Shown piece after piece: positions 2,681 through 15,489 of a stretch of 39,625 nt of DNA. The notes beneath the pieces are model-generated. The model was not told where the DNA came from, did not search any database, and saw only the letters and a program-made list of their open reading frames with translations. Source of the DNA: a virus. The position numbers and the translations under genes are program-made. The DNA lies in IMG/VR virus record IMGVR_UViG_3300035689_000037, positions 1 through 39,625 of that record. One strand, 5' to 3'. The stretch's first letter is position 1; the number at the start of each line of letters is the position of its first letter.

Positions 2681-2693
2681 TGACTTGATTGGA

Positions 2694-3034: not shown

Positions 3035-3060
3035 AAGGGTTCCTTTCTGTTGGTATTACA

Positions 3061-3079
3061 CCCCTTCTTTTTAGAAGGG
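3061..3079 (-). repeat. CCCTTCTTTTTAGAAGG intergenic repeat (hairpin form)
   Basis: Reads CCCCTTCTTTTTAGAAGGG, able to fold as CCTTCT-TTTT-AGAAGG, and lies 27 nt upstream of the start at 3034. It marks one edge of the structured region 3110-3650; another copy marks the other edge at 3650. Confidence 0.6.
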
Positions 3080-3109
3080 ACAATTATAAAGAAAAAAGAA
3101 TTTTTTAGA

Positions 3110-3650: not shown

Positions 3651-3662
3651 CCCTTCTTTTTA
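3650..3662 (-). repeat. CCCTTCTTTTTA intergenic repeat overlapping a stop codon
   Basis: The copy runs into the TAA stop (3660-3662) of the 3660-3956 gene, so on the minus strand AAAAAGAAGGG directly follows that gene and precedes the structured RNA candidate. Confidence 0.5.
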
Positions 3663-3956
3663 GGCGATACGTGCAATAGTGGTTTGCTTGTGTCGCCGTG
3701 ATAAGAAGTCTTTTTTGCATGTTCTTACTGCATGTTGCTTTTTATCGAAATGATCTTGTGACTTTTGACCATACTCATCAATAAAAAACCAATGCTTTGA
3801 ACCATTATATCTACAACTAATGACATATCCAACCTCTTGCTTTGCAACAAGGATCTTTTTACCATGAGTTAAGCGATAACGAGCTGTTTGATATAGATAT
3901 GCGCCGGCAAAAGTAAAACAAATGCCCAAAAGCATACCATTAATTAACATCACCAT
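3660..3956 (-). CDS. Membrane-anchored small basic protein (98 aa)
   Basis: ATG at 3956 (MVMLINGMLLGICFTFAGAY) follows AGAAAGGAAATAAG. Residues about 3-25 form one transmembrane segment; the remaining part is basic (RYRLTHGKKILVAKQ, CKKDFLSRRHKQ) and so would face the cytoplasm under the positive-inside rule. The middle, GYVISCRYNGSKHWFFIDEYG, looks like a short beta unit. No family recognised. The gene lies directly upstream of the structured RNA candidate on the minus strand, with no clear terminator between them. Confidence 0.7.
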   Translation of the reverse strand: MVMLINGMLLGICFTFAGAYLYQTARYRLTHGKKILVAKQEVGYVISCRYNGSKHWFFIDEYGQKSQDHFDKKQHAVRTCKKDFLSRRHKQTTIARIA

Positions 3957-3977
3957 GACTTATTTCCTTTCTGGTAT

Positions 3978-3996
3978 CTATAAGTAAAAAATAAAG
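3978..3996 (-). repeat. AT-rich intergenic repeat, divergent copy
   Basis: Plus strand CTATAAGTAAAAAATAAAG, related to the copies at 4050 and 4874. It lies in the leader of the 3660-3956 gene, about 20 nt before its start. Confidence 0.45.
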
Positions 3997-4008
3997 AGAG
4001 ATGATAAT

Positions 4009-4021
4009 CCCCCTTCTTTTT
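4009..4021 (-). repeat. CCCTTCTTTTTT intergenic repeat
   Basis: A copy of the CCCTTC element 53 nt upstream of the start at 3956, without the second arm of the hairpin. Confidence 0.5.
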
Positions 4022-4049
4022 TGTATGTGCTCAAAGATTAAAGAGAGCT

Positions 4050-4067
4050 CTATAAATAAAAAAGAAT
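4050..4067 (-). repeat. AT-rich intergenic repeat (CTATAAATAAAAAAGAAT)
   Basis: Near-identical to 4874-4892. The plus strand contains TATAAATA, the T4-type late promoter core, but no plus-strand gene follows. On the minus strand it gives a T-run about 20 nt past the terminator hairpin at 4086-4119. Confidence 0.55.
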
Positions 4068-4085
4068 CTTTTTATAAGAAACTTA

Positions 4086-4119
4086 GGCTGGGTACCACGA
4101 TTTCTCGTAGTACCCAACC
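4086..4119 (-). terminator. Terminator of the 4148-4648 gene
   Basis: Fifteen-bp stem (GGCTGGGTACCACGA with TCGTAGTACCCAACC, G-U pairs allowed) closed by a GAAA tetraloop on the minus strand. The T-rich run comes only after a further 15-20 nt. Confidence 0.65.
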
Positions 4120-4147
4120 TTCGTTCCTTGACCGCTGACTCTGAGGA

Positions 4148-4648
4148 TCAGAAATCCTCGAAGTCGTCACCGTCCTCGTCGTCGTCACCGATGATGGTCG
4201 GCTCGAACTCGCTGAGCGTGGTTGCCACGTTTGCACGGATGCTACCGCGCTTGGTGAACACCAACTGCTTCAACCATTCGGACAAGTTCTCATCCGTGAT
4301 GGTGATCGAGTCCGCCAACTTGCCAGCGTTTGCGCCCGACTTGATGGCTTCTGTCTTAACCATCTTCAGGTCCATCTCCCACTCGCAGTTGTTCGTGGCC
4401 TTCTTCGTGAAGTCGACCTGCTTCTCCATCTGACCCGTGATCTTGTTGAGCTTGAGTACGGGCTTGCCGTTCTCGTCGGTCAACACCTTTCCGAGCCAGA
4501 TGGCGATCTTCTCGCGGACTCCGTTAGGAGCATTGAAGAAGAGTGGACGACTCCATTCTGCACCATCCTTGCGGTTCAACACGATCTTGCTTTCTCCCGC
4601 GTTGACCCACACGCTGATGGTCTTGTTGGACTTGGTATTTTGTGCCAT
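4148..4648 (-). CDS. SSB-tail-like protein, paralogue of the 9176-9631 gene (166 aa)
   Basis: ATG at 4648 lies 7 nt after AAGGAGG. The N-terminal half (SVWVNAGESKIVLN, FFNAPNGVREKIAIWLGKV, DENGKPV) matches in order the protein at 9176-9631 (VFINAGENRVMLN, WFDVPNGAREFVVDALQK, NDKGQQV), so the two are paralogues. The C-terminus is a low-complexity acidic tail, GDDDEDGDDFEDF, ending in Phe, as in bacterial SSB tips (DDDIPF) and in T7 gp2.5-type proteins, where the tail recruits partner proteins. A role as single-stranded nucleic-acid-binding or recruiting protein is inferred only from tail and length. Confidence 0.75.
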   Translation of the reverse strand: MAQNTKSNKTISVWVNAGESKIVLNRKDGAEWSRPLFFNAPNGVREKIAIWLGKVLTDENGKPVLKLNKITGQMEKQVDFTKKATNNCEWEMDLKMVKTEAIKSGANAGKLADSITITDENLSEWLKQLVFTKRGSIRANVATTLSEFEPTIIGDDDEDGDDFEDF

Positions 4649-4706
4649 TTCGTTTCCTCCTTGATGGCAAACCTGTGTACGAGCAGGTATCTCGTTGGGA
4701 AACTCT

Positions 4707-4799
4707 CCCTTCTTTTTAGAAGGAAGTTAGTCCCTTCTTTTTAGAATGAAGAGAATCCCTTCTTTTTAGAAGGAAGTTAATCCCTTCTTTTTAGAATGA
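4707..4799 (-). repeat. Tandem duplication of CCCTTC hairpin elements (period 50 bp)
   Basis: Four CCCTTCTTTTTAGAA elements in two 50-bp units (4707-4756 and 4757-4799). In each unit the first element has a full hairpin arm (AGAAGG) and the second a broken one (AGAATGA). They sit in the long leader of the 4148-4648 gene, 60-150 nt upstream of its start. Confidence 0.75.
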
Positions 4800-4840
4800 G
4801 TGACTTTCACTACATTCTTTTCGCTAGAGGTGTATTCACA

Positions 4841-5192: not shown

Positions 5193-5200
5193 AATGCCCT

Positions 5201-5230
5201 CCTTACCGTTGGCCCCGATGGCCTAGGCGA
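5201..5230 (-). promoter_or_regulatory. Type I leader hairpin of the 4965-5192 gene
   Basis: Minus strand: GCC-TA-GGCC-ATCG-GGGCC-AAC-GGT, then AAGGAGG. The inner stem is GGCC/GGCC and the outer GCC/GGT. It touches the ribosome site on one side and the terminator T-run on the other. Confidence 0.7.
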
Positions 5231-5239
5231 AAAAGGGAA

Positions 5240-5272
5240 GTCCCCTACCCACGTACTGAACGTAGGAGGGGA
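5240..5272 (-). terminator. Terminator of the 5300-5719 gene
   Basis: GTCCCC...GGGGAC stem with an inner CCTAC/GTAGG-type arm, followed on the minus strand by TTCCCTTTTT. Confidence 0.8.
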
Positions 5273-5299
5273 CAAAACCCTTTTGTGTTGCTTTTGTGA

Positions 5300-5719
5300 T
5301 CAGCTGTTGCTGATTGCCTTGAGAGGCGTGTATTCCTTTCGGCAGCTTTCGCACCGATTGGCCTTGCGTCCGATTTCCTGTCGGGTTCCCTCAAGGATTT
5401 CTTCGCACACATGCTTGCCGTTTGAGTTCCAGTAGCCAAGGCACTTGACCTGGGCTTTCCCCTGTGGGTTGAGGGGCTGAGGTGTAGTAGCAACCTTCTT
5501 CATTCCCTGGTACTTGGCAAGAGCCTCAATGATTTGCTGAGCCAGTTCGGCGTTGAATTCCAATTCGCTGTTTCGGAACTCCTGCAATTTCTTCAGGATG
5601 TTTCGCTTTTGCGTGAGGTTCAACGCTTTTTGGCCTCCTTCGAACAGCTTTTCGATCTGATCGATTAGCTCCTCTCGGGACACCTTTTTGGCCTGCGCCT
5701 TCTTTGTTGTCTTTTTCAT
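5300..5719 (-). CDS. Hypothetical protein with C-terminal zinc-ribbon-like domain (139 aa)
   Basis: ATG at 5719 follows AAGGAGAAACAGAA. The first 18 residues are Lys-rich; residues about 15-75 are predicted helical (VSREELIDQIEKLFEGG, AELAQQIIEALAKYQ); the C-terminal part has C-x11-C (CLGYWNSNGKHVC) and CESCRKEYTPL, enough to bind one zinc. No family recognised. It has its own type I leader and terminator and lies just downstream of the putative polymerase gene on the minus strand. Confidence 0.8.
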   Translation of the reverse strand: MKKTTKKAQAKKVSREELIDQIEKLFEGGQKALNLTQKRNILKKLQEFRNSELEFNAELAQQIIEALAKYQGMKKVATTPQPLNPQGKAQVKCLGYWNSNGKHVCEEILEGTRQEIGRKANRCESCRKEYTPLKAISNS

Positions 5720-5729
5720 TTCTGTTTCT

Positions 5730-5759
5730 CCTTACCGTTGGCCCCGATGGCCTAGGCAA
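5730..5759 (-). promoter_or_regulatory. Type I leader hairpin of the 5300-5719 gene
   Basis: Minus strand: TTGCC-TA-GGCC-ATCG-GGGCC-AAC-GGTAA-GGAG. Outer TTGCC/GGTAA pairs through a G-U; inner GGCC/GGCC. Nearly identical to the copy at 5201-5230. Confidence 0.75.
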
Positions 5760-5766
5760 AAAAGAA

Positions 5767-5802
5767 GAGCCTCTAACTACACTGGATGTGTAGCAGAGGC
5801 TC
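5767..5802 (-). terminator. Terminator of the 5848-8358 gene
   Basis: GAGCCTCT...AGAGGCTC stem extended by CTACAC/GTGTAG around a five-base loop, followed on the minus strand by TTCTTTTTT. Confidence 0.85.
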
Positions 5803-5847
5803 CTCTTGTGACATTCACCACATTAAGTGGCTACTTGATCCCTCTAA

Positions 5848-8358
5848 TTAGGGCTGACTGTTGGAACGAAACCAATCGTAGGTTCCATCCTGTACCCGTC
5901 GGAGAGCCCGGATATACCAATCTACCGGGTGCCGTTCGCTCTTCGTAGAGAACGAATACAGCCACTGGTCGTAATTGGATCGATGGCTCGCCTTCTTCTG
6001 GACAATTGCGCGTTGAGCGAGTAGTAAGATCATACGATCCGTATACTCTTCACCACGCTCATCGTCTTCATCAGACTCAGCCAACTTTCCGGAGAACCAA
6101 TTTACCCACGCTTCACTAGATTGCATCTTAATGATACGTCGATAATCGGAACGCACCTTGGCCAACTTAATGTTACCATTGGTGTATTCCTGGTTCGTAA
6201 AGTCAATGTTCGACAATACTTCAGGCATAACGATCTGACAATTAAGCCAATCCGTCATTTCCTTAATGTATTTACGAGCCATTGACTCCCTCTCCAGGTG
6301 AAGGGTCATCCACGAGGAATTTTCTGCCTCATCGGCTTGCCATCCCTGTTCCTCAATAATTGGCTTTGGCATTCGAGTATGGAACCAGAATGGATCCAGT
6401 TTGAAACTCAATTGCTGACCAAGATCGAGAAACACATCTGCCACCCATTGCTTGATGGCATTTGTGTCAGCCGTAGAGCCCTGACCTTGTTGGAGAACGT
6501 CAATGATGTTCTCGTTCAAGTCTACAAGATTCATGATCGGCTGATCAAGGAGTGCGTTCCAGATCATCTTCGGGATTACAGTCCCTCCAACGCCTGGCGG
6601 AAAACCCATTGCAGCGAGTCTGATTCTGGCTTCATCGGACAACGAAAACTCCGGTCCCAATTTGGGTGGATTCTTCATGGCCGGTAAAGTACCAATATTC
6701 AGTCTCTTCTCCAGCTTCGTAAATTGTGGAACGAACTTGGTTAGCTGTTCCAAATCTACCATTGGCGGTTCCTGGTCGTAGGCATGGAATACAGGTCCCA
6801 TGTCCTTGCCAACGGAAATCATTGACCACTCCCCGAAATCGTTCGGGTTGCGCATTATGATTGCCATTGTCTGGATTCGCCCATTCTTATGACGGACACG
6901 GCGAATATGAACCTTCACCGTATCATCTAAGTCTGGACCACCATGATTCTTTAAGTTAACCTCAAAGAATTTACCAGGTACCACGAAGCTGTGAGTCTGC
7001 TCGTGGTAGAAGGCATGGTTACCTTTGGGCATCTTGTACCCAAAGATTTCCAGTACCTCCTTTGTATAAACGTGAGCGGCATACGCCCACGGCACGGGAA
7101 ACCAGTGCCGATTCTTATCACGCCATACTTCACCCTTCACTTCGTGATTAAACTCATCCCGTCTATCGCCAAGCAATGACAGTGTGAGTCCTCTCACGGA
7201 CATGAACAAGAGGGTCTGACAGCTCAGTAGAGGTACACCAAGCCTATTAAGCTTAGCAACCGTTTCCTGAATCAGCTGGACCATTCCTCGGTTTTGACCG
7301 AACTTGTCCTCCTCATCTTCGTGAAGGAGTTCGTCGGCATTATCTGCCAACTTTTCCATCCACTCAGACCTCTTACCCTCTTTTAGGTCCTGGAAGAATT
7401 GCTCCAGGCTCTTCTGAAGAGTATCGAGTAACGTGGTTGAGTCATAAAGACCTTCCACACGCCGATAGATGGCATGGGTTTGATCGTCCGACTTTACAGG
7501 GATAGCCCCATATGTCGGTTCAATCGTCAACCACTGCCACCCAGAGGTGCGAACCTCAGTCTTAATGTTTGGCTCAAACGTACGAATGTCGAAACCGTTC
7601 ATCATTGACTTGGACACGATTACGGCATTACCCTTAATCAAGCCCAGTTCGCACATCATCCGGATCTGAACAACAGCGGTTTTACCACTGCGGATCGCCC
7701 AGATGTGACGAGCTCGCCAAGCACGCGAAGACGAAGTATTCGACTTCACGCACTTGATAGCCAATCCCTTGGAGATTGCGGTAGCACCGTCCACGTAGCT
7801 GTCGGGCATGCCCAACGCCTTATGGTCGATGACTTCCACTTTCAGAGCATTTTTGGCATCTCGATAGAGCCACATGCACGACAAGCGCACAAGCTCCACG
7901 AGACGCTTGCTCATCTTCTTCGAATTACCGATCAAAAGACCGATCTCCTTGAAAGAGGCAAGCCAGCCGTCATTGCCCTTAACTCGGACAACGTACTGCT
8001 CTGACGCCGTACTGAAGCGAATCACTTCGCTAGAGATTGGCGTGGGAAGTACCACGGGTCCATCCGACTTGATCACCGGCTTGACGCCCTTAAGCGCCTT
8101 CTCGTTGACCTTTCGGACTTCAACGCGGAATCGATCAGCAAAGAAGTGCATGAGGAATGCGGGGGCATAAGGCCCTCCCTCAAACTCTTCAAATACCTCA
8201 TCTCCTGAGAGGAGAGGTGCACCTGACACCAGCCGAAGCCAGCGACCTGTGCGCTTTACGATCCCGTGAAAGAAGCCCTGTCGGACATCCCTCTCGCGGG
8301 TTGCCGGAGTAGGTCCGGCGGCCTCGGTGCCCTGTTCAGGCTCCTTGTTATTGGGCAT
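5848..8358 (-). CDS. Putative single-subunit RNA polymerase, YonO/RdRp (double-psi barrel) type
   Basis: 836 aa from ATG 8358, which follows AAAGGAGGGCATC. Two regions match the two-barrel catalytic core of YonO- and eukaryotic-RdRp-like polymerases. Residues about 185-243 have DSYVDGATAIS, a basic stretch, then VQIRMMCELGLIKG, paralleling the DGxGxxS...AxQIR...KG barrel. Residues about 473-480 have GGPDLDDTV, at the place of the metal-binding DxDGD loop (SDLDGD in plant RdRps), with RNP at about 503-505 further on. YonO of phage SPbeta is a DNA-dependent RNA polymerase; this protein is shorter-motifed, and the exact DxDGD is altered to DLDD, so activity is uncertain. An own transcription enzyme would suit the repeated leader/terminator layout around it. 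Alternative: a degenerate relative or an unrelated enzyme. Confidence 0.55.
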   Translation of the reverse strand: MPNNKEPEQGTEAAGPTPATRERDVRQGFFHGIVKRTGRWLRLVSGAPLLSGDEVFEEFEGGPYAPAFLMHFFADRFRVEVRKVNEKALKGVKPVIKSDGPVVLPTPISSEVIRFSTASEQYVVRVKGNDGWLASFKEIGLLIGNSKKMSKRLVELVRLSCMWLYRDAKNALKVEVIDHKALGMPDSYVDGATAISKGLAIKCVKSNTSSSRAWRARHIWAIRSGKTAVVQIRMMCELGLIKGNAVIVSKSMMNGFDIRTFEPNIKTEVRTSGWQWLTIEPTYGAIPVKSDDQTHAIYRRVEGLYDSTTLLDTLQKSLEQFFQDLKEGKRSEWMEKLADNADELLHEDEEDKFGQNRGMVQLIQETVAKLNRLGVPLLSCQTLLFMSVRGLTLSLLGDRRDEFNHEVKGEVWRDKNRHWFPVPWAYAAHVYTKEVLEIFGYKMPKGNHAFYHEQTHSFVVPGKFFEVNLKNHGGPDLDDTVKVHIRRVRHKNGRIQTMAIIMRNPNDFGEWSMISVGKDMGPVFHAYDQEPPMVDLEQLTKFVPQFTKLEKRLNIGTLPAMKNPPKLGPEFSLSDEARIRLAAMGFPPGVGGTVIPKMIWNALLDQPIMNLVDLNENIIDVLQQGQGSTADTNAIKQWVADVFLDLGQQLSFKLDPFWFHTRMPKPIIEEQGWQADEAENSSWMTLHLERESMARKYIKEMTDWLNCQIVMPEVLSNIDFTNQEYTNGNIKLAKVRSDYRRIIKMQSSEAWVNWFSGKLAESDEDDERGEEYTDRMILLLAQRAIVQKKASHRSNYDQWLYSFSTKSERHPVDWYIRALRRVQDGTYDWFRSNSQP

Positions 8359-8368
8359 GATGCCCTCC

Positions 8369-8412
8369 TTTGCGCCCCCTATCTGAGGTAAGGCCGATGG
8401 CCTAGGCGCAAA
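8369..8412 (-). promoter_or_regulatory. Type I leader hairpin, long-armed variant, of the 5848-8358 gene
   Basis: Minus strand: TTGCGCC-TA-GGCC-ATC-GGCC, a 14-nt insertion, then GGCGCAA and AGGAGG. The outer stem grows to seven perfect pairs (TTGCGCC/GGCGCAA), so the change on one arm is matched on the other. Confidence 0.75.
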
Positions 8413-8455
8413 AAAGAAGTTTTAATTAATACTAAATAACTATACATAAGAGGAA

Positions 8456-8496
8456 AGTCCTCCCTAACTACGCTGGCTGCGTAGGTAGAGAGGACT
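8456..8496 (-). terminator. Terminator of the 8508-9062 gene
   Basis: AGTCCTC...GAGGACT stem, extended by CTACGC/GCGTAG around a short loop, followed by TTTCCTCTT. Between it and the next leader lies about 40 nt of AT-rich sequence (8413-8450), an insertion not seen in the other gaps. Confidence 0.7.
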
Positions 8497-8507
8497 AAAA
8501 CCTCCTG

Positions 8508-9062
8508 TCAGAACGGCTCGTCGTCCGTGTTCTGCGGAACTGGAATGTCCAACCCCAAGGCACGGTCCATGATCGCGTTCATCATGTCATCCAGTTCAAT
8601 CGGCAAGAAACCGATCATCACCTTCTGATTGATTAACACAGGCACTGTCTTCTGGTTCTTCAGAAGAAAGCTAATGCTGTAGTGCTTGGTGGCTTCCTTC
8701 ATCTCGTAGCTACCGTTTTCATGGTAGACACGAAACCAGTAACTGCGAGAGACGTTCATGAGAACGCGGTAACTGCCCTTGTCATCCCGCCAAACGCATG
8801 CGGTCTTGACAAGGTGAGCCTTTGGCTGGCCTTCGGTCTTGAACTTGACCGAGAAGAAGGGACGTCCCTTCTTGTCAACCTTGAACCCTGCAGTCTGCAC
8901 CCATGCTGAGGTGAGAAGGATAAAGAATGTCCAAAATGGATTGACCTTTTTGTAGGCCTTTTCCTGAATTCTGGCCTTCTTTCTGGCCTTCTTGATCTGA
9001 GCTTTCTGACGCTGGCGAATCTCTCGATACACCTGCTTGCGGGATTTTTCCTTGTTATCCAT
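8508..9062 (-). CDS. Hypothetical protein with hydrophobic segment and SSB-like C-terminal tip (184 aa)
   Basis: Start set at ATG 9062 (MDNKEKSRKQVY), 8 nt after AAAGGAG; an in-frame TTG at 9107 would begin inside the leader hairpin and is rejected. Residues 5-40 are strongly basic and helical, residues about 43-60 hydrophobic (PFWTFFILLTSAWVQTAGF), and the rest looks beta-rich (FFSVKFKTEG, YRVLMNVSRSYWFRVYH). The last residues, NTDDEPF, resemble the DDDIPF tip by which SSB recruits partners. Function unknown; the tail suggests binding to a host or phage replication protein. Confidence 0.75.
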   Translation of the reverse strand: MDNKEKSRKQVYREIRQRQKAQIKKARKKARIQEKAYKKVNPFWTFFILLTSAWVQTAGFKVDKKGRPFFSVKFKTEGQPKAHLVKTACVWRDDKGSYRVLMNVSRSYWFRVYHENGSYEMKEATKHYSISFLLKNQKTVPVLINQKVMIGFLPIELDDMMNAIMDRALGLDIPVPQNTDDEPF

Positions 9063-9077
9063 TGTTGTATTTCTCCT

Positions 9078-9107
9078 TTGCCTTCGACCCCGATGGTCTA
9101 TTGGCAA
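9078..9107 (-). promoter_or_regulatory. Type I leader hairpin of the 8508-9062 gene
   Basis: Minus strand: TTGCC-AATA-GACC-ATCG-GGGTC-GAA-GGCAA-AGGAG. Outer TTGCC/GGCAA; inner GACC/GGTC. Same class as 5730 with the inner pairs changed together. Confidence 0.8.
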
Positions 9108-9116
9108 AAAGGGGAA

Positions 9117-9149
9117 CCCCCTCCTACGCTGGTTGCGTAGAAGAGGGCA
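9117..9149 (-). terminator. Terminator of the 9176-9631 gene
   Basis: GCCCTCTTCTACGC paired with GCGTAGGAGGGGG around a five-base loop, then TTCCCCTTTTT on the minus strand. Leader plus terminator here (about 9072-9155) are repeated almost base for base at 11013-11097. Confidence 0.85.
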
Positions 9150-9175
9150 TACCCTTTCGCTAGCTTTACCGTGGA

Positions 9176-9631
9176 TCAGAAATCGAAGTCTTCGTCGATC
9201 TTCTTGATTTGAGCCAACTTCTCTTGCAGCTTTGCTCGAGCGTCGCTGATGACTGGTTCATTCTTCTCACTGATTGCGCCCTTTGGACGGACGTTTTCGG
9301 TGACCATATCTAACCATTCTTCCAAGCCATCGTCGTTGATCGTGACAGTGAAATACCACTCATTCTTGGCGTTCTTATTCAACACCATGAGGTTCGTGGG
9401 CATTTCCCAGATGATCACGTTTGAGTTCACCATGACCTGCTGACCCTTGTCGTTGACCATCATGGTCTTCTGTAGGGCGTCAACGACGAACTCGCGCGCG
9501 CCGTTAGGGACATCGAACCACAAGTTTACTTTCTTGCCCTTGTGTTCCCATTGCCCCTTGAGCGGGTTGAGCATAACACGGTTCTCTCCCGCGTTGATGA
9601 ACACGGCTCGAGTTTCGTTATTGTTTTCCAT
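9176..9631 (-). CDS. SSB-tail-like protein, paralogue of the 4148-4648 gene (151 aa)
   Basis: Start at ATG 9631 (MENNNETRAVFINAGENRVM) after AAAGGAGAAATACAACA; the longer TTG frame through the leader is rejected. The order VFINAGENRVMLN, VNLWFDVPNGAREFVVDAL, NDKGQQVMVN, FTVTINDDGLEEWLDMV parallels the 4148 protein (SITITDENLSEWLKQLV). The C-terminus KKIDEDFDF is acidic and Phe-terminated. A compact beta domain plus such a tail is the plan of T7 gp2.5 and bacterial SSB, but no OB-fold signature can be proven by eye. Confidence 0.75.
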   Translation of the reverse strand: MENNNETRAVFINAGENRVMLNPLKGQWEHKGKKVNLWFDVPNGAREFVVDALQKTMMVNDKGQQVMVNSNVIIWEMPTNLMVLNKNAKNEWYFTVTINDDGLEEWLDMVTENVRPKGAISEKNEPVISDARAKLQEKLAQIKKIDEDFDF

Positions 9632-9646
9632 TGTTGTATTTCTCCT

Positions 9647-9676
9647 TTGCCTTCGGCCCCGATGGCCTATCGGCAA
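9647..9676 (-). promoter_or_regulatory. Type I leader hairpin of the 9176-9631 gene
   Basis: Minus strand: TTGCC-GATA-GGCC-ATCG-GGGCC-GAA-GGCAA-AGGAG. The inner stem is GGCC/GGCC where the 9078 copy has GACC/GGTC: a paired change. Confidence 0.8.
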
Positions 9677-9683
9677 AAAGGAA

Positions 9684-9709
9684 GTCCCCAGGGATTTCTC
9701 CCTAGGGAC
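9684..9709 (-). terminator. Terminator of the 9743-9937 gene
   Basis: GTCCCTAGGGA and TCCCTGGGGAC form an 11-bp stem (one or two G-U) around GAAA, then TTCCTTTTT on the minus strand. Confidence 0.85.
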
Positions 9710-9742
9710 GACCTTTATGTGACTACTTAGTGGCTGAATATC

Positions 9743-9937
9743 TCAGCAATTCCACCAAAACTTGTAGTCTTCCCGGAACGCACTTGTGTTGCGGGAATAT
9801 CCATGTGTGATCCCATTGAGTTCGTCAATGAGACGCTCTCTGGGTCGGCACACGTGCCAAGGATCACACGTGCAGTCGGAGATGTGGCGGATTGCTTGGT
9901 CCGCTACCTCCTTCAAGTATTCAATGTATTCATCCAT
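9743..9937 (-). CDS. Hypothetical 64-aa protein
   Basis: Start at ATG 9937 (MDEYIEYLKEVADQAIRHIS), 6 nt after AAAGGAGGTGA, an unusually complete Shine-Dalgarno; the longer TTG frame begins inside that site. Residues 1-20 are an amphipathic acidic helix, followed by CTCDPWHVCRPRERLID with three closely spaced Cys (C-x-C-x5-C) that may bind metal. No family recognised. Confidence 0.7.
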   Translation of the reverse strand: MDEYIEYLKEVADQAIRHISDCTCDPWHVCRPRERLIDELNGITHGYSRNTSAFREDYKFWWNC

Positions 9938-9951
9938 GTTTTCACCTCCTT

Positions 9952-9990
9952 TCAAGAGAATGAGCTAGGGGCCTTTCCCCTATCCTCAAA
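9952..9990 (-). promoter_or_regulatory. Type II leader hairpin of the 9743-9937 gene
   Basis: Minus strand GAGGA-TAGGGG-AAAGG-CCCCTA-GCTC: stem TAGGGG/CCCCTA inside GAG/CTC, directly after the terminator T-run. Identical to the copy at 12962-13000. Confidence 0.65.
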
Positions 9991-9998
9991 AAAAGGAA

Positions 9999-10026
9999 GT
10001 TCCCGAGGACCGAAATCCCCGGGAAC
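9999..10026 (-). terminator. Terminator of the 10059-10595 gene
   Basis: GTTCCCGGGGA and TCCTCGGGAAC pair over 11 bp, followed by TTCCTTTTTTT on the minus strand. Exact copies recur at 13379, 14449 and 14937. Confidence 0.85.
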
Positions 10027-10058
10027 AAACCTTTTACTTACTTACGTTAAAAATTAAA

Positions 10059-10595
10059 TTAGTTTTCCAGATTTTCTAAATGACTTAAAACACGACCCAG
10101 CGCCCAATGGGAAACTTGGAAGTTCTCTTCAATTATTTCAATCCGGTTTGGGTCTTGGTCATTGGGATGAAACCCAACGCGAGACAAATCCCGTCCCGAC
10201 CAATTATTCATTTTGGAAACAAGATTAAGTGTTTCCTGACTTAAGGTGGAATAAACCGGCCCCAAATCTTCAATTAAAACCCCAAATGTCCAGTCTGTTT
10301 GTAAGACAGACGAAAGCGGCATTGGTCGTTCATTTTGTTCAAGAATGATGTCGTTGTAGCCAGCCCCCTGCTCATCATCTCCAATGAGAATGATTTGAAC
10401 AAAAGCTTGTTCTGGCATTGAAGCCACAGCAACATATCGTTGCAGACTTCCATCATCCAACTGAACACTGATTGACCTTACTTGACCGATTTCAATTGGT
10501 CCATTTGTAATTTCACGGATTTCAATTGGTCCATTTGCAATTTCAAAAGATTCAAGCAACTGCTTGACTCTTTTATATGGATTTTTATGTTTCAT
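10059..10595 (-). CDS. Hypothetical protein with internal duplication (178 aa)
   Basis: Start at ATG 10595 (MKHKNPYKRVKQLLESFEI) following AGGAGAAAACAGAAA; the TTG-initiated frame through the leader is rejected. Residues about 18-38 contain a tandem duplication, NGPIEIREI then NGPIEIGQV, reflected in a repeated ATTTCAATTGGTCCATTTG in the DNA (10490-10540). The rest alternates beta-like and helical stretches, with no recognised motif. Three TAAGTAAG units follow the stop on the minus strand (10033-10046) before the terminator. Confidence 0.75.
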   Translation of the reverse strand: MKHKNPYKRVKQLLESFEIANGPIEIREITNGPIEIGQVRSISVQLDDGSLQRYVAVASMPEQAFVQIILIGDDEQGAGYNDIILEQNERPMPLSSVLQTDWTFGVLIEDLGPVYSTLSQETLNLVSKMNNWSGRDLSRVGFHPNDQDPNRIEIIEENFQVSHWALGRVLSHLENLEN

Positions 10596-10610
10596 TTTCT
10601 GTTTTCTCCT

Positions 10611-10640
10611 TTGCCTTCGGCCCCGATGGCCTATCGGCAA
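10611..10640 (-). promoter_or_regulatory. Type I leader hairpin of the 10059-10595 gene
   Basis: Minus strand: TTGCC-GATA-GGCC-ATCG-GGGCC-GAA-GGCAA-AGGAG, identical to the 9647 copy over the hairpin. Confidence 0.8.
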
Positions 10641-10647
10641 AAGGGGA

Positions 10648-10681
10648 GTCCCCTGAACCCATACGAGAGGTTCAAGGGGAC
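10648..10681 (-). terminator. Terminator of the 10767-11003 gene
   Basis: GTCCCCTTGAACC pairs with GGTTCAGGGGAC apart from a single bulge; CTCCCCTTTT follows on the minus strand. It is about 85 nt after the stop codon, farther than usual. Confidence 0.75.
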
Positions 10682-10766
10682 ATCCTTCTTCATGGGGTGA
10701 CTACTCCCATGGATTGTCGTCGTCATCATTTTTCAGAGAGTACTACTCAAATGTTTCCGTATCGTC

Positions 10767-11003
10767 TCAGTCCCAGTCGAGGTCTAACGCGGAATTCGAA
10801 AGAATGTCGGAGGTTTGGTAGACAGGCCACATCTCTCCGTCAATTTCGTCCATGAATGCAATGTCAGACACATTCCGACCCCAAAAATCTTTGATTAACG
10901 CGTAGTACGCGTCTATATCGCGGTCGTATTCGAAAGTGAGCTGATATGGCTCGTGGTTCATGATGAGTTTGCACCATTCATCAATTCTGAACTTTTGTTT
11001 CAT
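10767..11003 (-). CDS. Hypothetical acidic protein (78 aa)
   Basis: Start at ATG 11003 (MKQKFRIDEWCKLIMNHEPY) after AGGAGAAAACAGAAA. The longer open frame to 11168 runs backwards through the leader and terminator and is rejected. The protein is rich in Asp and aromatic residues (FEYDRDIDAYYALIKDFWG) and ends ALDLDWD. The leader plus terminator upstream is an almost exact copy of the one at 9072-9155. No family recognised. Confidence 0.75.
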   Translation of the reverse strand: MKQKFRIDEWCKLIMNHEPYQLTFEYDRDIDAYYALIKDFWGRNVSDIAFMDEIDGEMWPVYQTSDILSNSALDLDWD

Positions 11004-11018
11004 TTTCTGTTTTCTCCT

Positions 11019-11048
11019 TTGCCTTCGACCCCGATGGTCTATTGGCAA
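11019..11048 (-). promoter_or_regulatory. Type I leader hairpin of the 10767-11003 gene
   Basis: Minus strand: TTGCC-AATA-GACC-ATCG-GGGTC-GAA-GGCAA-AGGAG; identical to 9078-9107. Confidence 0.8.
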
Positions 11049-11057
11049 AAAGGGGAA

Positions 11058-11089
11058 CCCCCTCCTACGCTGGTTGCGTAGAAGAGGGC
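11058..11089 (-). terminator. Terminator of the whiB-like gene
   Basis: Same hairpin as 9117-9149 (GCCCTCTTCTACGC with GCGTAGGAGGGGG), T-rich tail on the minus strand, 13 nt past the stop. Confidence 0.85.
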
Positions 11090-11101
11090 ATACCCTTTTT
11101 G

Positions 11102-11347
11102 TCAGCTTTGGACCTGGAGCCTGAGACTCCTGATCCTTCGGCGTCCCCTTTCGGTGGTCCCGCCCCAAACACCGAAGTGTTCATCATTTTGGAGGGCATG
11201 GTTGAGGCACTCCTCCTTGACTTGGCAGCCTCGGCAAATTGTTATTGCCTTGGCTTGTTTGGCCTGCCATCCTTTCTCGTTTGTGTTTGGGAAGAATATT
11301 GCGTGTTCTGTGACACCCTTACAGGCGCCTTGATCTTGCCATTTCAT
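11102..11347 (-). CDS. WhiB-family Fe-S transcriptional regulator (81 aa)
   Basis: ATG at 11347 lies 7 nt after AAAGGAGAA. The sequence has the complete Wbl signature: W3, C9, then FFPN (18-21), C38-x2-C41-x5-C47 and GVWGG (59-63), followed by a basic tail (ERGRRRIRSLR). The four Cys bind a [4Fe-4S] cluster, and GVWGG contacts region 4 of the primary sigma factor in the host family. Wbl proteins are restricted to Actinobacteria and their phages, where phage copies can repress host whiB genes or redirect transcription (known for mycobacteriophage TM4 WhiB). It has its own type I leader and terminator, like its neighbours. Confidence 0.93.
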   Translation of the reverse strand: MKWQDQGACKGVTEHAIFFPNTNEKGWQAKQAKAITICRGCQVKEECLNHALQNDEHFGVWGGTTERGRRRIRSLRLQVQS

Positions 11348-11360
11348 TTTGTTTTCTCCT

Positions 11361-11390
11361 TTGCCTTCGACCCCGATGGTCTATTGGCAA
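11361..11390 (-). promoter_or_regulatory. Type I leader hairpin of the whiB-like gene
   Basis: Minus strand: TTGCC-AATA-GACC-ATCG-GGGTC-GAA-GGCAA-AGGAG, directly abutting the ribosome site. Confidence 0.8.
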
Positions 11391-11396
11391 AAAAGA

Positions 11397-11419
11397 GACC
11401 TCCTTCCCAGAGGGAGACC
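11397..11419 (-). terminator. Terminator of the 11461-11928 gene
   Basis: GGTCTCC/GGAGGTC seven-bp stem with G-U pairs, then TCTTTTTT on the minus strand. A G-rich run (11426-11432) lies just upstream of it in the transcript. Confidence 0.65.
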
Positions 11420-11460
11420 GAAGCCCCCCCCTGGGATAGTGGATTAACGTGACTGATCGT

Positions 11461-11928
11461 CTATTTGAGACGATTGGCTTCTATGACTAACAAAATATCT
11501 GTTAATGTACGAAGCCCCTGCTCCCATAGGCCCTCTGCGATGAGAGCTGTGGGTTGAGTGCCCCTGACACCCTTACCGATCTTCATGCCGTCAGAAACGG
11601 TTTCAACCTCTTTAAAGATCAGCAGTTCGCCTGAACTAAAACTCTCTTCGTTGACTTGTGTTACCGACCAGCGGTATCCACGAGTGCGAACGTAGTAGTT
11701 CTCGTTCGGGTTCTCCCTGCTCTGCAGAAAGAACTGGGTCGGGACAAGAAAGGTGACTACATTGATGTAGTAGCCATGATCTTTGCAGATCTGGTCTACT
11801 TCACCAACGAAGAAGTCAACTTCCGTAAAGGGAGGATGAAAATCGTATCCATCCTCTTTATACTTCGGTTGAAGAGGTTGGATTTTACTCCAATTCTCCT
11901 TCCGCTCCTTTCTCTTGCGTTTTGCCAT
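11461..11928 (-). CDS. Hypothetical 155-aa protein
   Basis: ATG at 11928 (MAKRKRKERKENWSKIQ) after AAGGAGGAAACAGAAA. A very basic first 15 residues is followed by an aromatic-rich alpha/beta region (DGYDFHPPFTEVDFFVGEVDQI, TRGYRWSVTQVNEESF) and a C-terminal helix (LWEQGLRTLTDILLVIEANRLK). No recognised family. Flanked by its own leader and terminator. Confidence 0.78.
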   Translation of the reverse strand: MAKRKRKERKENWSKIQPLQPKYKEDGYDFHPPFTEVDFFVGEVDQICKDHGYYINVVTFLVPTQFFLQSRENPNENYYVRTRGYRWSVTQVNEESFSSGELLIFKEVETVSDGMKIGKGVRGTQPTALIAEGLWEQGLRTLTDILLVIEANRLK

Positions 11929-11942
11929 TTTCTGTTTCCTCC

Positions 11943-11972
11943 TTGCCTTCGACCCCGATGGTCTATTGGCAA
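11943..11972 (-). promoter_or_regulatory. Type I leader hairpin of the 11461-11928 gene
   Basis: Minus strand: TTGCC-AATA-GACC-ATCG-GGGTC-GAA-GGCAA-GGAGG. Confidence 0.8.
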
Positions 11973-11979
11973 AAAGGAA

Positions 11980-12005
11980 GTCCCCAGGGATTTCTCCCCA
12001 GGGAC
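11980..12005 (-). terminator. Terminator of the 12043-12288 gene
   Basis: GTCCCTGGGGA and TCCCTGGGGAC pair over 11 bp around a GAAA tetraloop, then TTCCTTTTT on the minus strand. Confidence 0.85.
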
Positions 12006-12008
12006 AAC

Positions 12009-12037
12009 CTTTACTTACTTACTTACTTACTTACTTA
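12009..12037 (-). repeat. TAAG tetranucleotide array after a stop codon
   Basis: On the minus strand (TAAG)n, six or more units, lies between the stop of the 12043-12288 gene and its terminator. Because the period is 4, TAA falls in all three frames. Shorter versions follow other genes at 10033, 12786 and 13411; a related TTAG/TTAAG run is at 12375-12404. Confidence 0.7.
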
Positions 12038-12042
12038 TGGAG

Positions 12043-12288
12043 TCAGCGACGAACGCGCATTCTCCACTCCCCCATACCGAGGTAAGTGTTTACCAACACA
12101 GCCTCAAACAGGGAAAAGTTATTCAGGTCCTGGACCCACAGTCTAATCTCTTGCGAGATTTCGCTTGTTGATACAGGATCATCATATCCCAGGACTTTTC
12201 CGAAGCAGTTGTGGAAGTCCAAGACATCCCCAATGTTCGGTGAAGGCTGGGAGCCAATCACCTTTCCTTCTTGAAATAACAAGGCCAT
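12043..12288 (-). CDS. Hypothetical 81-aa protein
   Basis: ATG at 12288 (MALLFQEGKVIGSQPSPNIG) with AAAGGGGCTATC upstream. The sequence includes a beta-like start, a central CFGKVLGYDDPVSTSEISQEI and a basic C-terminus EWRMRVRR. No family recognised. It has a variant leader hairpin with different bases but the same pairing scheme. Confidence 0.7.
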   Translation of the reverse strand: MALLFQEGKVIGSQPSPNIGDVLDFHNCFGKVLGYDDPVSTSEISQEIRLWVQDLNNFSLFEAVLVNTYLGMGEWRMRVRR

Positions 12289-12307
12289 GATAGCCCCTTT
12301 CTGTTAT

Positions 12308-12330
12308 GGACTGATCCGGTTGATCTATCC
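12308..12330 (-). promoter_or_regulatory. Type I leader hairpin, short variant, of the 12043-12288 gene
   Basis: Minus strand: GGAT-A-GATC-AACC-GGATC-A-GTCC. Inner GATC/GATC and outer GGAT/GTCC keep the architecture of the GACC/GGTC copies with new base pairs. Confidence 0.7.
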
Positions 12331-12341
12331 CAAAAAAAGAA

Positions 12342-12373
12342 GTTTCCCCCAAGGCAAATGCCCCAGGGGAAAC
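12342..12373 (-). terminator. Terminator of the 12405-12692 gene
   Basis: GTTTCCCCTGGGGC... paired with ...GGGGGAAAC, then TTCTTTTTTT on the minus strand. Confidence 0.8.
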
Positions 12374-12404
12374 AACTTCAACTAACTTAACTAACTTAAC
12401 TAAT

Positions 12405-12692
12405 TTACTTGCGTCGGTTTATCTGTGTAATTACTTCACAGATAAGACGCAACTTTCTTTCTACATGACGCCATTGGTTATAACGCTTTTCCAACATATT
12501 AATGCTGCCGTTGTAGTCAGCATTTTGACACATGTTGTCGTGGTAAGCTGCAGGCTCACCATACATGTCTTCCAATTGCATTACCTCCTTTCTGCAACTA
12601 GCGCAGTAACCCATTTCTCCATTAGGGAGGACGGGCAGTGTGTACTTTGCATTGCTATACTGTTTCCCACAGGAAACGCATTCGTTCTTCAC
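12405..12692 (-). CDS. Zinc-ribbon-like protein, GTG start (95 aa)
   Basis: An open frame reaches 12773 but crosses the terminator and leader, so I place the start at GTG 12692 (VKNECVSCGKQYSNAKYTLP), 5 nt after AGAAAGG. CVSC (about residues 5-8) and CASC (about 32-35) form a zinc ribbon over a short beta hairpin (YTLPVLPNGEMGYC). The C-terminal half is helical and basic (MLEKRYNQWRHVERKLRLICEVI). Probably a nucleic-acid or protein adaptor; no family recognised. Confidence 0.72.
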   Translation of the reverse strand: MKNECVSCGKQYSNAKYTLPVLPNGEMGYCASCRKEVMQLEDMYGEPAAYHDNMCQNADYNGSINMLEKRYNQWRHVERKLRLICEVITQINRRK

Positions 12693-12696
12693 GACA

Positions 12697-12736
12697 ACCT
12701 TTCTGACCCCTTCGGTTGTTCGGGGGTCTATGGTCA
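12697..12736 (-). promoter_or_regulatory. Leader hairpin, large-loop variant, of the 12405-12692 gene
   Basis: Minus strand: GACC-ATA-GACCCC-12-nt loop-GGGGTC-AGAAA-GGTT. A six-bp inner stem and a four-bp outer GACC/GGTT; the outer arm contains part of the ribosome site, so folding could hide it. Confidence 0.6.
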
Positions 12737-12744
12737 AAAAAGAA

Positions 12745-12785
12745 GTTTCCCCGAGGACCAGCATCTCTGCCAATCCCCGGGGAAC
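12745..12785 (-). terminator. Terminator of the 12809-12952 gene
   Basis: GTTCCCCGGGGA paired with TCCTCGGGGAAAC over a 16-nt loop, then TTCTTTTTT on the minus strand. Confidence 0.8.
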
Positions 12786-12808
12786 AACTCAACTACTTAC
12801 TTACTTGC

Positions 12809-12952
12809 TTATTTGCGTCGGATTTCTCCAACAACGTAAGCAATGATGCAAACAGCTATAACCGTAATGGCTACTGCAGCTGCAATTCCCATAGGTGACC
12901 AGGACACTACGTCCTGACACACCCCATCCATGCATTCATATGGTTGACCCAT
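12809..12952 (-). CDS. Small single-pass membrane protein (47 aa)
   Basis: ATG at 12952 after AAAGGGGAATATA; TAA at 12809. MGQPYECMDGVCQDVVSWSP is a short outside-type N-terminus with two Cys, residues about 21-42 are a hydrophobic helix (MGIAAAVAITVIAVCIIAYV), and GEIRRK is a positive cytoplasmic end, so N-out/C-in is expected. Its type II leader, terminator and TAAG array match those of its neighbours, which supports it as a real gene despite its length. Function unknown. Confidence 0.75.
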   Translation of the reverse strand: MGQPYECMDGVCQDVVSWSPMGIAAAVAITVIAVCIIAYVVGEIRRK

Positions 12953-12961
12953 TATATTCCC

Positions 12962-13000
12962 CTTTCAAGAGAATGAGCTAGGGGCCTTTCCCCTATCCTC
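12962..13000 (-). promoter_or_regulatory. Type II leader hairpin of the 12809-12952 gene
   Basis: TAGGGG/CCCCTA stem inside GAG/CTC, as at 9952-9990; the two copies are identical over about 38 nt, although the genes they precede are unrelated. Confidence 0.65.
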
Positions 13001-13019
13001 AAAAAAAAGGGTAGGGTCT

Positions 13020-13051
13020 CTACCCCAGGGATCCGAAGATCCCCAGGGTAG
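13020..13051 (-). terminator. Terminator of the 13138-13314 gene
   Basis: Fourteen-bp stem CTACCCTGGGGATC with GATCCCTGGGGTAG closed by a UUCG tetraloop on the minus strand; TTTTTTTT follows after a further CCCTACCC. The 86 nt between this and the stop codon show only a weak GCTACT/AGTAGC hairpin. Confidence 0.8.
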
Positions 13052-13137
13052 GGACGAGTTGCCTCCATTCTGTTCCCAGGTTAGGAGTGTTCACCCCGGC
13101 TACTCTCTTTCAAGTAGCGGCTTGTGGGACGAGGGTC

Positions 13138-13314
13138 TCAGAGAGAATCGACGCACTGCCCGTGAACGAGCGGCATGGATTCATCCCTGGTGCGGTGAAC
13201 CGTTGTTCCAAGTTCCCCTGTAGGGAGCTTGTACTGGTAATCCACCACCTCTTCTACAGTTATGTCCTGTCCGCAAAGCGAACAAACACCAACCGAGTCC
13301 CAGGTGGGAGCCAT
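13138..13314 (-). CDS. Zinc-finger-like protein (58 aa)
   Basis: Start at ATG 13314 (MAPTWDSVGVCSLCGQDITV), 6 nt after AAAGGAGGTGA; the longer frame to 13356 begins before the ribosome site. CSLC at residues 11-14 and HGQC near the C-terminus (VHGQCVDSL) make a C-x2-C...H-x2-C zinc site with a short beta unit between. No family recognised beyond the zinc-binding pattern. Confidence 0.75.
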   Translation of the reverse strand: MAPTWDSVGVCSLCGQDITVEEVVDYQYKLPTGELGTTVHRTRDESMPLVHGQCVDSL

Positions 13315-13343
13315 TATTTCACCTCCTTTCGTTGGTGAGTTGT

Positions 13344-13366
13344 GGACTGACCCCAATGGTCTATCC
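13344..13366 (-). promoter_or_regulatory. Type I leader hairpin of the 13138-13314 gene
   Basis: Minus strand: GGAT-A-GACC-ATTG-GGGTC-A-GTCC. Outer GGAT/GTCC as at 12308, inner GACC/GGTC as at 9078: the two stems vary independently. Confidence 0.75.
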
Positions 13367-13378
13367 CCAAAAAAGGGA

Positions 13379-13406
13379 GTTCCCGAGGACCGAAATCCCC
13401 GGGAAC
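13379..13406 (-). terminator. Terminator of the 13442-13705 gene
   Basis: Exact copy of the GTTCCCGGGGA/TCCTCGGGAAC hairpin at 9999, with CTCCCTTTTTT on the minus strand, after a TAAG array at 13411-13443. Confidence 0.85.
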
Positions 13407-13441
13407 AACCCTTCTACTTACTTACTTACTTATCTACTTAC

Positions 13442-13705
13442 TTAGTGAAGAGTGCTCTCTTCGTGGTAGACATCCACCACAATTGAAGTACCCTTCTTGC
13501 TGACTGTTACTTCCTGGTGCAATGACCAGACTGAGTTCCCCTCATACGCCTCATCGAAAGCCATGAAGGCCTTGATGAGCTTCTCGATTTTGACTTCTGA
13601 GAAGCCATTCGTATCAATGACATGAGTACCCTCAGGCAAAAGGATGTATTCATCCCTGCCTGTTTGACGATACACCAACGAGTTGATTATTTCTGATACT
13701 TTCAT
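13442..13705 (-). CDS. Hypothetical 87-aa protein
   Basis: ATG at 13705 (MKVSEIINSLVYRQTGRDEY), 9 nt after GGAGGT. The sequence alternates a helix, a beta turn (LLPEGTHVIDTNGFSEVK), a helix (IEKLIKAFMAFDEAYEG) and a final beta hairpin (QEVTVSKKGTSIVVDVYHEE), a plausible small alpha/beta fold. No family recognised. Confidence 0.72.
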   Translation of the reverse strand: MKVSEIINSLVYRQTGRDEYILLPEGTHVIDTNGFSEVKIEKLIKAFMAFDEAYEGNSVWSLHQEVTVSKKGTSIVVDVYHEESTLH

Positions 13706-13732
13706 AATTTGCTGACCTCCATCAGCTAGGTG

Positions 13733-13756
13733 AGATTGACCCCAATGGTCTATCCC
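13733..13756 (-). promoter_or_regulatory. Type I leader hairpin of the 13442-13705 gene
   Basis: Minus strand: GAT-A-GACC-ATTG-GGGTC-A-ATC. The outer stem is now GAT/ATC, again a compensated change against GGAT/GTCC. Confidence 0.72.
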
Positions 13757-13763
13757 AAAAAAA

Positions 13764-13802
13764 GGAGTTCCCTCCTACGCTGGATGCGTAAGAGAGAACT
13801 CC
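13764..13802 (-). terminator. Terminator of the 13833-14279 gene
   Basis: Seventeen-bp stem GGAGTTCTCTCTTACGC with GCGTAGGAGGGAACTCC around ATCCA, followed by TTTTTTT on the minus strand. Confidence 0.9.
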
Positions 13803-14289: not shown

Positions 14290-14437
14290 AGGAATCATAA
14301 TACGCTGTTAAGGCTCGCGTAGTCTCCTAGTCTTTTAAATTGCAGGTGTTCTATAGTCTGCAACGCTAACAATGTGACAAACATCGTCTGGTTTTACACT
14401 AAACAGATACCAGATTTAAGGACAGTGGCCTATCCTC
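14290..14437 (-). promoter_or_regulatory. Type III long leader of the 13833-14279 gene
   Basis: Directly after the terminator T-run the minus strand has GGATAG-GCCA-CTGTCC (hairpin), then CTGGT...ACCAG enclosing about 16 nt, then about 90 nt to AGGAGG. The same order occurs at 14800-14925. Possible minus promoter elements TTGTCA and TATAGA lie near 14380 and 14350, with spacing longer than ideal. Confidence 0.5.
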
Positions 14438-14448
14438 AAAAAAAGGAA

Positions 14449-14799: not shown

Positions 14800-14925
14800 A
14801 AGAAACATGCCTTTGTTCAGCTTAACGTACTGAACGTGATTATTACGTTGACTGATGTACCGGCGTCACCCGGACTGGTTTTATGCCTGCATTCTGGCTA
14901 CCAGCAAGGACAATGGCCTATCCTC
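14800..14925 (-). promoter_or_regulatory. Type III long leader of the 14521-14790 gene
   Basis: Minus strand: GGATAG-GCCA-TTGTCC hairpin, CTGGT...ACCAG stem, GCCGG-like turn, AACGT/ACGTT stem, then TTGGAGGAATC before ATG. It shares order and the AAAACCAG block with 14290-14437; the first stem differs by G-U versus G-C. Confidence 0.5.
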
Positions 14926-14936
14926 AAAAAAAGGAA

Positions 14937-15281: not shown

Positions 15282-15337
15282 TACATTTCCTTTCTGTTAA
15301 GACCCCATACCCCGGTGGGCACGTTAAAGGCCAAGTA

Positions 15338-15356
15338 CACGACATGTACTCATAAT
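15338..15356 (-). other. Hairpin in the leader of the 14979-15281 gene
   Basis: AGTACA/TGTACT six-bp stem on the minus strand, 60 nt upstream of the start, in the place of the type I hairpins but unrelated in sequence. Confidence 0.4.
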
Positions 15357-15363
15357 CCCCTCC

Positions 15364-15489
15364 CTATAAATTTTTCTTCTATTTATCCCTTATTAAACTT
15401 ATATAAAGATATATAAACACATCTATAAATTTTTCCCCTATTTTTACCTCTAATAAATCTTTACATGTTTATATAGGCTACGATATAGT
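15364..15489. promoter_or_regulatory. AT-rich divergent promoter region with direct repeats
   Basis: The 354-nt gap between divergent genes (15281 and 15636) contains two imperfect direct repeats beginning CTATAAATTTTTC at about 15364 and 15422. For the plus strand a promoter can be drawn: TTTACA (15460-15465), 18-nt spacer, TATAGT (15484-15489), about 145 nt before the ATG at 15636. Runs such as TATATAAAGATATATAAAC could supply minus-strand promoters. No ORF is seen in the gap. Confidence 0.5.

Follow-up and report, generated by a model that had tools for sequence, protein, structure and literature searches.

A covarying family of RNA leaders in large uncultured phages is tied to a predicted new branch of single-chain phage RNA polymerases

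Unrelated genes of a phage genome fragment are preceded by a real, covarying, multi-copy family of RNA leaders, which is larger than first noted. The window, i.e. the whole stretch of DNA analysed (39,625 nucleotides of virus record IMGVR_UViG_3300035689_000037), carries 17 of them. The family is tied to what structure modelling indicates is a new branch of single-chain two-barrel phage RNA polymerases, with a mechanism that we infer.

Folding and reading of the gaps showed that each minus-strand gene from 14790 down to 5192 has a leader hairpin, always located between the T-run and the Shine-Dalgarno (SD) sequence. The gaps follow one layout, with an intrinsic terminator first, then the pyrimidine tract, a spacer of five bases, TAG, a hairpin in two parts and finally the SD. 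The preliminary description had proposed a multi-copy leader before at least twelve genes; this is borne out with a real count of 17, including five copies absent from its list (14925-14906, 14437-14418, 13000-12975, 12735-12696 and 9987-9962, minus strand). For motif GACCCCGATGGTCTA, at most three mismatches being allowed, 11 matches were found versus 0.41 expected. The features are as follows.

15290..15410, minus strand: array-start region, heading the array and conserved in relatives
14906..14932, minus strand: leader 1, T7 and hairpin, GAGGATAG variant; gene start 14790
14418..14444, minus strand: leader 2, T7 and hairpin; gene start 14279
13764..13802, minus strand: example of an intrinsic terminator closing a cassette, from the terminator scan
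13732..13763, minus strand: leader 3, T7 and hairpin; gene start 13705
13344..13374, minus strand: leader 4, T6; outer GGAT/GTCC, inner GACC/GGTC; gene start 13314
12975..13008, minus strand: leader 5, T8; outer GAG/CTC, inner GGGG/CCCC; gene start 12952
12696..12741, minus strand: leader 6, T6; long inner stem GACCCC/GGGGTC; gene start 12692 (GTG, zinc-finger-like)
12308..12338, minus strand: leader 7, T7; inner GATC/GATC; gene start 12288
11945..11975, minus strand: leader 8, T5; outer GCC/GGC, inner GACC/GGTC; gene start 11928
11363..11394, minus strand: leader 9; whiB-like gene, start 11347
11021..11051, minus strand: leader 10; gene start 11003
10613..10642, minus strand: leader 11, inner GGCC/GGCC; gene start 10595
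9962..9994, minus strand: leader 12, outer GAG/CTC, inner GGGG/CCCC; gene start 9937
9649..9679, minus strand: leader 13, inner GGCC/GGCC; gene start 9631
9080..9110, minus strand: leader 14; gene start 9062
8372..8415, minus strand: leader 15, T6; GCGCC/GGCGC; without adjacent terminator; RNA polymerase gene downstream
5848..8358, minus strand: 836-aa single-chain two-barrel (double-psi beta-barrel) RNA polymerase homologue, by fold match
5734..5763, minus strand: leader 16; gene start 5719
5196..5234, minus strand: leader 17; gene start 5192

A hairpin wedged between a terminator T-run and the SD was correctly described for the minus-strand gaps, but the copy at 8409 has no directly adjacent terminator, its T6 being kept. 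The loop AUYG is not the universal core that it was taken for, as AAAGG, AACCG, ACAA, CACCC and others are also found. That the genes served are unrelated is right among those that can be annotated (WhiB, E 5e-21; a zinc-finger-like protein; the RNA polymerase); most are without a family. The array's first gene (start 15281) lacks a leader and sits after the array-start region, which is probably the main control region. In relatives, this region is found in L010 (3340-3500), L014 (2120-2250), L019 (4660-4790) and L104 (4620-4760); its motifs are AAATTTATAGGG...TTTAACGTGCCCACC... in the window and AAATAGGGGAAAATTTATAGGG ... TTTAACGNGCCCACC ... across the family. A second repeated motif, AAAAAGAAGGG, precedes genes of the next cluster (window 2600-4800, minus strand) and also follows T-runs in relatives, often as TACAAAAAAGAAGGG; it is possibly another leader class. 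Further down, at about 1210-1345 (minus strand), AGGAAGGTTCGATTCCTTCAAGCTCCG resembles the 3' half of a tRNA, and a GGGGCTA start lies some 100 bases upstream of it; ARAGORN called no tRNA at this site.

The window is only a fragment; across the polymerase gene it is identical to a 67-kb record, and relatives reach 202-210 kb. At the DNA level, its first half gave no match in the GenBank phage collection. Among named phages, Moorella MTATph1, Bacillus KLEB27-3 and Acinetobacter ME3 come closest by large terminase, and the encoded WhiB protein (E 5e-21) suggests that the host is actinobacterial. At least 12 more contigs, all from one phage family and up to ~210 kb long, show the same gap architecture, and the leader-carrying phages are a group of very large, uncultured bacterial viruses. 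Collection by T-run, motif and ORF yielded 120 candidates in 13 contigs; five false ones were dropped and 106 distinct leaders were obtained. Leader sequences are lineage-specific (GAGGATAG, GCCAATAG, GCGAATAG, ATGGGTAG, ATGGATAG and ATGRCTAG), with a layout that is constant across all: tract, about five bases, TAG, inner hairpin, closing arm and SD. A covariance model from 16 copies, run on 311 kb of related records as the preliminary description had proposed, gave 47 matches at E<=0.5, all in arrays and none elsewhere. Some gaps also hold hairpins with a conserved CCTATACATATTATTATAA loop and changing closing stems (CACCA/TGGTG, AACC/GGTT, GGTGA/TCACC), located as follows.

G005 30097: CCTATACATATTATTATAA-loop hairpin
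G006 33839: CCTATACATATTATTATAA-loop hairpin
G007 123736 and 121899: CCTATACATATTATTATAA-loop hairpins
G008 63748: CCTATACATATTATTATAA-loop hairpin

Pairing was examined with shuffles, register slides and a comparison of own versus swapped arm pairing. The arm changes had been described as compensated, and they are: in 16 aligned copies, covariation was 0.394 versus 0.195 after shuffling (0/500), 14 cells were changed on both sides versus 2.8 (0/500), and the signal collapsed upon a one-column register slide. The own-versus-swapped comparison was added because these 16 copies are related. The 5' outer arm pairs better with its own 3' side than with those of other copies (z 6.2 over all swaps; for swaps within a genome, 4.5 with Watson-Crick pairs only and 5.9 with G-U included), and a control arm taken 24-32 bases upstream gave z about 0. 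With redundancy cut at 60% identity, 38 leaders were kept and z was still 5.8. For the inner stem, z was 4.2 in the window-type lineages and 3.4-5.1 in other lineages. Compensatory changes are thus present in both stems in a single register, and a later-found contig adds the outer stems UCGGGU/ACCCGA, CAGGU/ACCUA and UGGGU/ACCCA.

These data also agree with the earlier proposal of an RNA structure rather than a fixed DNA site. Since G-U pairs raise the own-versus-swapped signal and A-C pairs lower it, it is as sense RNA that the structure is read. Folding is better for the sense than for the antisense strand in 79/96 leaders, compared with 278/431 random pieces. The outermost arm covaries, which makes the refuting case of the preliminary description, transcription starting 3' of the hairpin from a DNA promoter, less likely. 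A leader peptide or leaderless AUG start, considered for the ATGGGTAG copies, some of which read MGSLxxxKSC..., was rejected because sister copies swap AUGGGU for UCGGGU or CAGGU with compensated partners and because window copies have no ATG at that place. The leader had been described as unlike known elements, and Rfam 15 indeed gave no gathering-score match over any leader. A self-cleaving ribozyme was rejected on the same Rfam result, the one Pistol site being separate. This Pistol ribozyme lies downstream of a small gene at window positions 3576-3643 (minus strand; 45.4 bits, gathering 34.5) and is found in 3/14 records, the window and two others of the family (72.4 and 65.5 bits).

By sequence, the best-conserved part of the leader is the pyrimidine tract with its five-base spacer and TAG, not the hairpin. 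Across the 106 leaders, sequence conservation is limited to -12..+8 around the tract end and further out it is mainly pairing that is kept; TAG stands exactly at +5 after the tract in 89/106. In 80% of leaders, versus 47% of random 50-mers, no more than 2 nt separate the tract from the first paired base of the lowest-energy hairpin. The block could be a promoter or a cleavage site. Upstream of it, terminators abound. Terminator-like sites number 35 versus 10.9 in shuffles, the scan lists a terminator directly upstream of 13/17 window leaders, and family-wide a strong hairpin (-7 kcal/mol or better) is located directly 5' of the tract in 94/106. Several of the remaining 12, among them L016 7002, L018 5496 and first-in-array copies, are clearly terminator-less; because they keep T6-T8, the tract is part of the leader as well as of the terminator. 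In window 12000-13480 (minus strand), TAAG tetranucleotide runs immediately follow stop codons and place stops in all frames before terminators. Host-type promoter-like sites are not enriched (7 versus 11.3 expected), for which reason a host sigma-70 promoter in the gaps was rejected; on the minus strand of the 5193-13760 gaps no host-type promoter was found. With strong terminators and no enrichment of host-type promoters, the genes must either have starts of their own or be served by a polymerase insensitive to terminators. An attenuator based on alternative terminator-leader pairing was rejected (z near 0).

The 836-aa protein encoded within the array matched no family in Pfam or PHROG. Its structure was modelled from a 14-sequence alignment (mean pLDDT 80, pTM 0.76), and the ten best PDB matches of the model are all single-chain two-barrel RNA polymerases, among them QDE-1 on top (E 1.7e-6), maize RDR2 and the Thermus-phage proteins gp62, gp64 and gp96 (P74 gp62 at 3e-3). 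The superpositions are loose (TM 0.2-0.4), so that they support the fold class and not the details. The motif GGxDxDD, residues 473-479, is invariant and one residue shorter than the canonical DxDGD. The model supports a two-barrel RNA polymerase by fold, with predicted activity only, and the family would be a new branch of single-chain two-barrel phage enzymes. A contig found through the leader pattern alone encodes a 953-aa remote homologue (GGADFDD; hmmsearch E 5e-38), its gene lying directly behind a leader copy. Further scans of IMG/VR with the leader pattern matched only known polymerase-encoding contigs and one 35-kb fragment (G015), in which leaders are present and the polymerase was not found. 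Searches for a phage sigma factor and a beta' subunit found none; no T7-type polymerase was found either, an absence that is weak since no control genome gave a match either.

The hairpin that abuts the tract and the rigid conserved block at the same place are best explained by a 5' end made there. We infer this end, its maker and its effect on stability or translation, and see the chances of the resulting model as evenly balanced. Each cassette would consist of a leader, a gene and an intrinsic terminator. The leader would be a cis-acting RNA element made of a tract shared with the U-tail of the previous terminator, a five-base spacer, TAG and a stem-loop in two parts, which starts 0-3 bases past the tract and ends before the SD. 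A new mRNA 5' end would most likely arise at the pyrimidine tract or immediately 3' of it, and every cassette would then give a separate message, bounded 5' by the leader hairpin and 3' by the terminator hairpin. The leader hairpin, which looks like a built-in expression tag, as the preliminary description had proposed, would protect against 5'-end-dependent decay and leave the ribosome-binding site accessible, and the outcome would be uniform, coordinated expression of small exchangeable genes. The tract/N5/TAG block would be the part that is recognized, either as a promoter for the phage two-barrel RNA polymerase or as a cleavage site. In a more specific and only tentative version, the block and the covarying hairpin would be the terminator-embedded start site of the new polymerase family, one tract serving both termination and initiation and up to about 20 genes in a row giving separate hairpin-capped messages. 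The polymerase motif counts against the explanation by a local 5' end, being DxDD and not DxDGD, with catalysis putative, and so does the 35-kb fragment G015, with its leaders and no polymerase found.

The same block could be a promoter of the phage polymerase and nothing else, possibly recognized as a DNA hairpin in the manner of N4, the RNA hairpin being incidental. The rigid 20-bp block, the lack of host-type promoter enrichment and the polymerase gene within the array would fit, and polymerases of the same fold in phage P23-45 use short dedicated promoter motifs (PMC10770324). However, the gain in covariation from G-U and not from A-C pairs and the better folding of the sense strand are RNA features that argue against such a promoter, and a sister lineage possesses the polymerase but lacks the block. 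We regard this reading as improbable.

This sister lineage has the same polymerase, at 36% identity. Its gaps contain no pyrimidine tract and hardly any terminators, which counts against a 5' end made at the tract and implies that not every such polymerase needs the tract. Instead, the gaps of L100, L103 and L107 hold an H-type pseudoknot, [CGAC]CU[GGGY]AY[GUCG]UUAAACU[RCCC]. Both of its stems show compensatory changes (94% of cells paired, covariation at 0/500). The pseudoknot is absent from Rfam. It also occurs in about two dozen other IMG/VR contigs, and near matches are found in over 100 GenBank phage records, mostly of Staphylococcus phages. Where Staphylococcus and Lactobacillus records were examined, it stands immediately 5' of the scaffold-position and capsid genes, inside the head-gene operon. 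In Cellulosimicrobium phage DS1, a Pistol ribozyme (66 bits) lies about 340 bases before the DS1 pseudoknot. Copies are located as follows.

L100 1821, 2344, 2681, 3077, 3405 and 4337: pseudoknots
L103 2143 and 2479: pseudoknots
L143 about 1500: pseudoknot
L145 about 1500: pseudoknot

Because the pseudoknot favours a per-gene function at the RNA level, we give real weight to a translational regulon, while considering it rather unlikely. Here, the array would be one long transcript whose hairpins are operators or ribosome-recruiting structures bound by a phage or host protein, as with the targets of T4 RegA and gp32. The single conserved region at the array head fits one long transcript reading through the terminators as well as it fits separate 5' ends. 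The SD lies inside a second hairpin in some leaders, the sister lineage keeps structured leaders before each gene without tract or clear terminators, and a near-identical pseudoknot stands in the Staphylococcus/Lactobacillus head-gene operon. Such a regulon nevertheless leaves unexplained the precise abutment of hairpin and tract, the top conservation of the tract and the strong intergenic terminators.

Another reading is an antitermination relay, in which the nascent hairpin, like the put RNA of HK022, makes the polymerase read through the next terminator. A terminator does lie downstream of the leader in every cassette, and in some relatives a leader is also first in the array, directly after the array-start region. 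One copy would nonetheless be enough for processive antitermination, the sister lineage keeps structured leaders though its gaps hold hardly any terminators, and alternative pairing between terminator and leader is absent, which makes a relay very unlikely. It is just as doubtful that the near-identical terminator-leader stretches serve mainly as homology for gene shuffling, like the PeSL elements of T4-type phages. The small unrelated array genes do differ between relatives and each is flanked by similar composite elements. However, covarying, sequence-divergent stems are not what homologous recombination needs, and shuffling accounts for the spread of the elements, not for selection on pairing.

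If each hairpin marks a separate message, these phages would have solved gene exchange by means of self-contained expression cassettes, and their leaders would directly mark the start or cleavage sites that go with a new RNA polymerase family. To our knowledge, few or no promoters are known for the YonO, P23-45 and crAss-like polymerases. Even as plain translational leaders, they form a covarying RNA family that Rfam lacks, with 17 copies within a single stretch of 10 kb. With the sister-lineage pseudoknot also standing upstream of capsid genes in Staphylococcus and Lactobacillus phages, the general question of per-gene RNA leaders in phages can be put to the test in laboratory phages.

Several known systems share part of this anatomy. 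The PeSL (promoter-early stem-loop) elements of T4-type phages, cited in PMC4503421, were reportedly described by Arbiol (2010) and Comeau (2014). They are composite intergenic elements with a terminator stem-loop. In both systems the terminator stem-loop is repeated between small variable genes; however, PeSL has host-type early promoters, which are not enriched in the array (7 versus 11.3 expected), and the array adds a second, covarying hairpin with the pyrimidine tract and TAG. The SAS/ESAS elements of cluster K mycobacteriophages are likewise present in many copies (11-19 per genome), near the start codons of non-structural genes, SAS being a fixed 13-bp GGGATAGGAGCCC that contains the SD and the ESAS arms not supporting RNA pairing (PMC3203893). 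In contrast, the array stems covary and lie 5' of the SD, and a search for GGGATAGGAGCCC with up to two mismatches gave no match. The put RNA of HK022 is also a phage leader next to terminators, with two stem-loops and one site per operon, whereas the array has one leader per gene. For N4-type promoters the polymerase binds an extruded DNA hairpin, against which the RNA-type G-U signature of the array argues. The predicted fold of the 836-aa protein resembles that of the crAss-like phi14:2 gp66, a two-barrel phage RNA polymerase. It is likewise shared with the single-chain double-psi beta-barrel polymerases YonO (PMC5467207) and P23-45 gp64/gp96 (PMC10770324). The 836-aa family differs from all of these in its divergence, with no Pfam/PHROG match and DxDD instead of DxDGD. 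Finally, class III mRNAs of T7 carry a 5'-end hairpin before the SD and are made by the phage polymerase. The T7 polymerase is unrelated and the array arms, unlike the T7 hairpins, covary between copies, but the hairpin before the SD is common to both and the geometry of the array would fit such a 5'-terminal hairpin.
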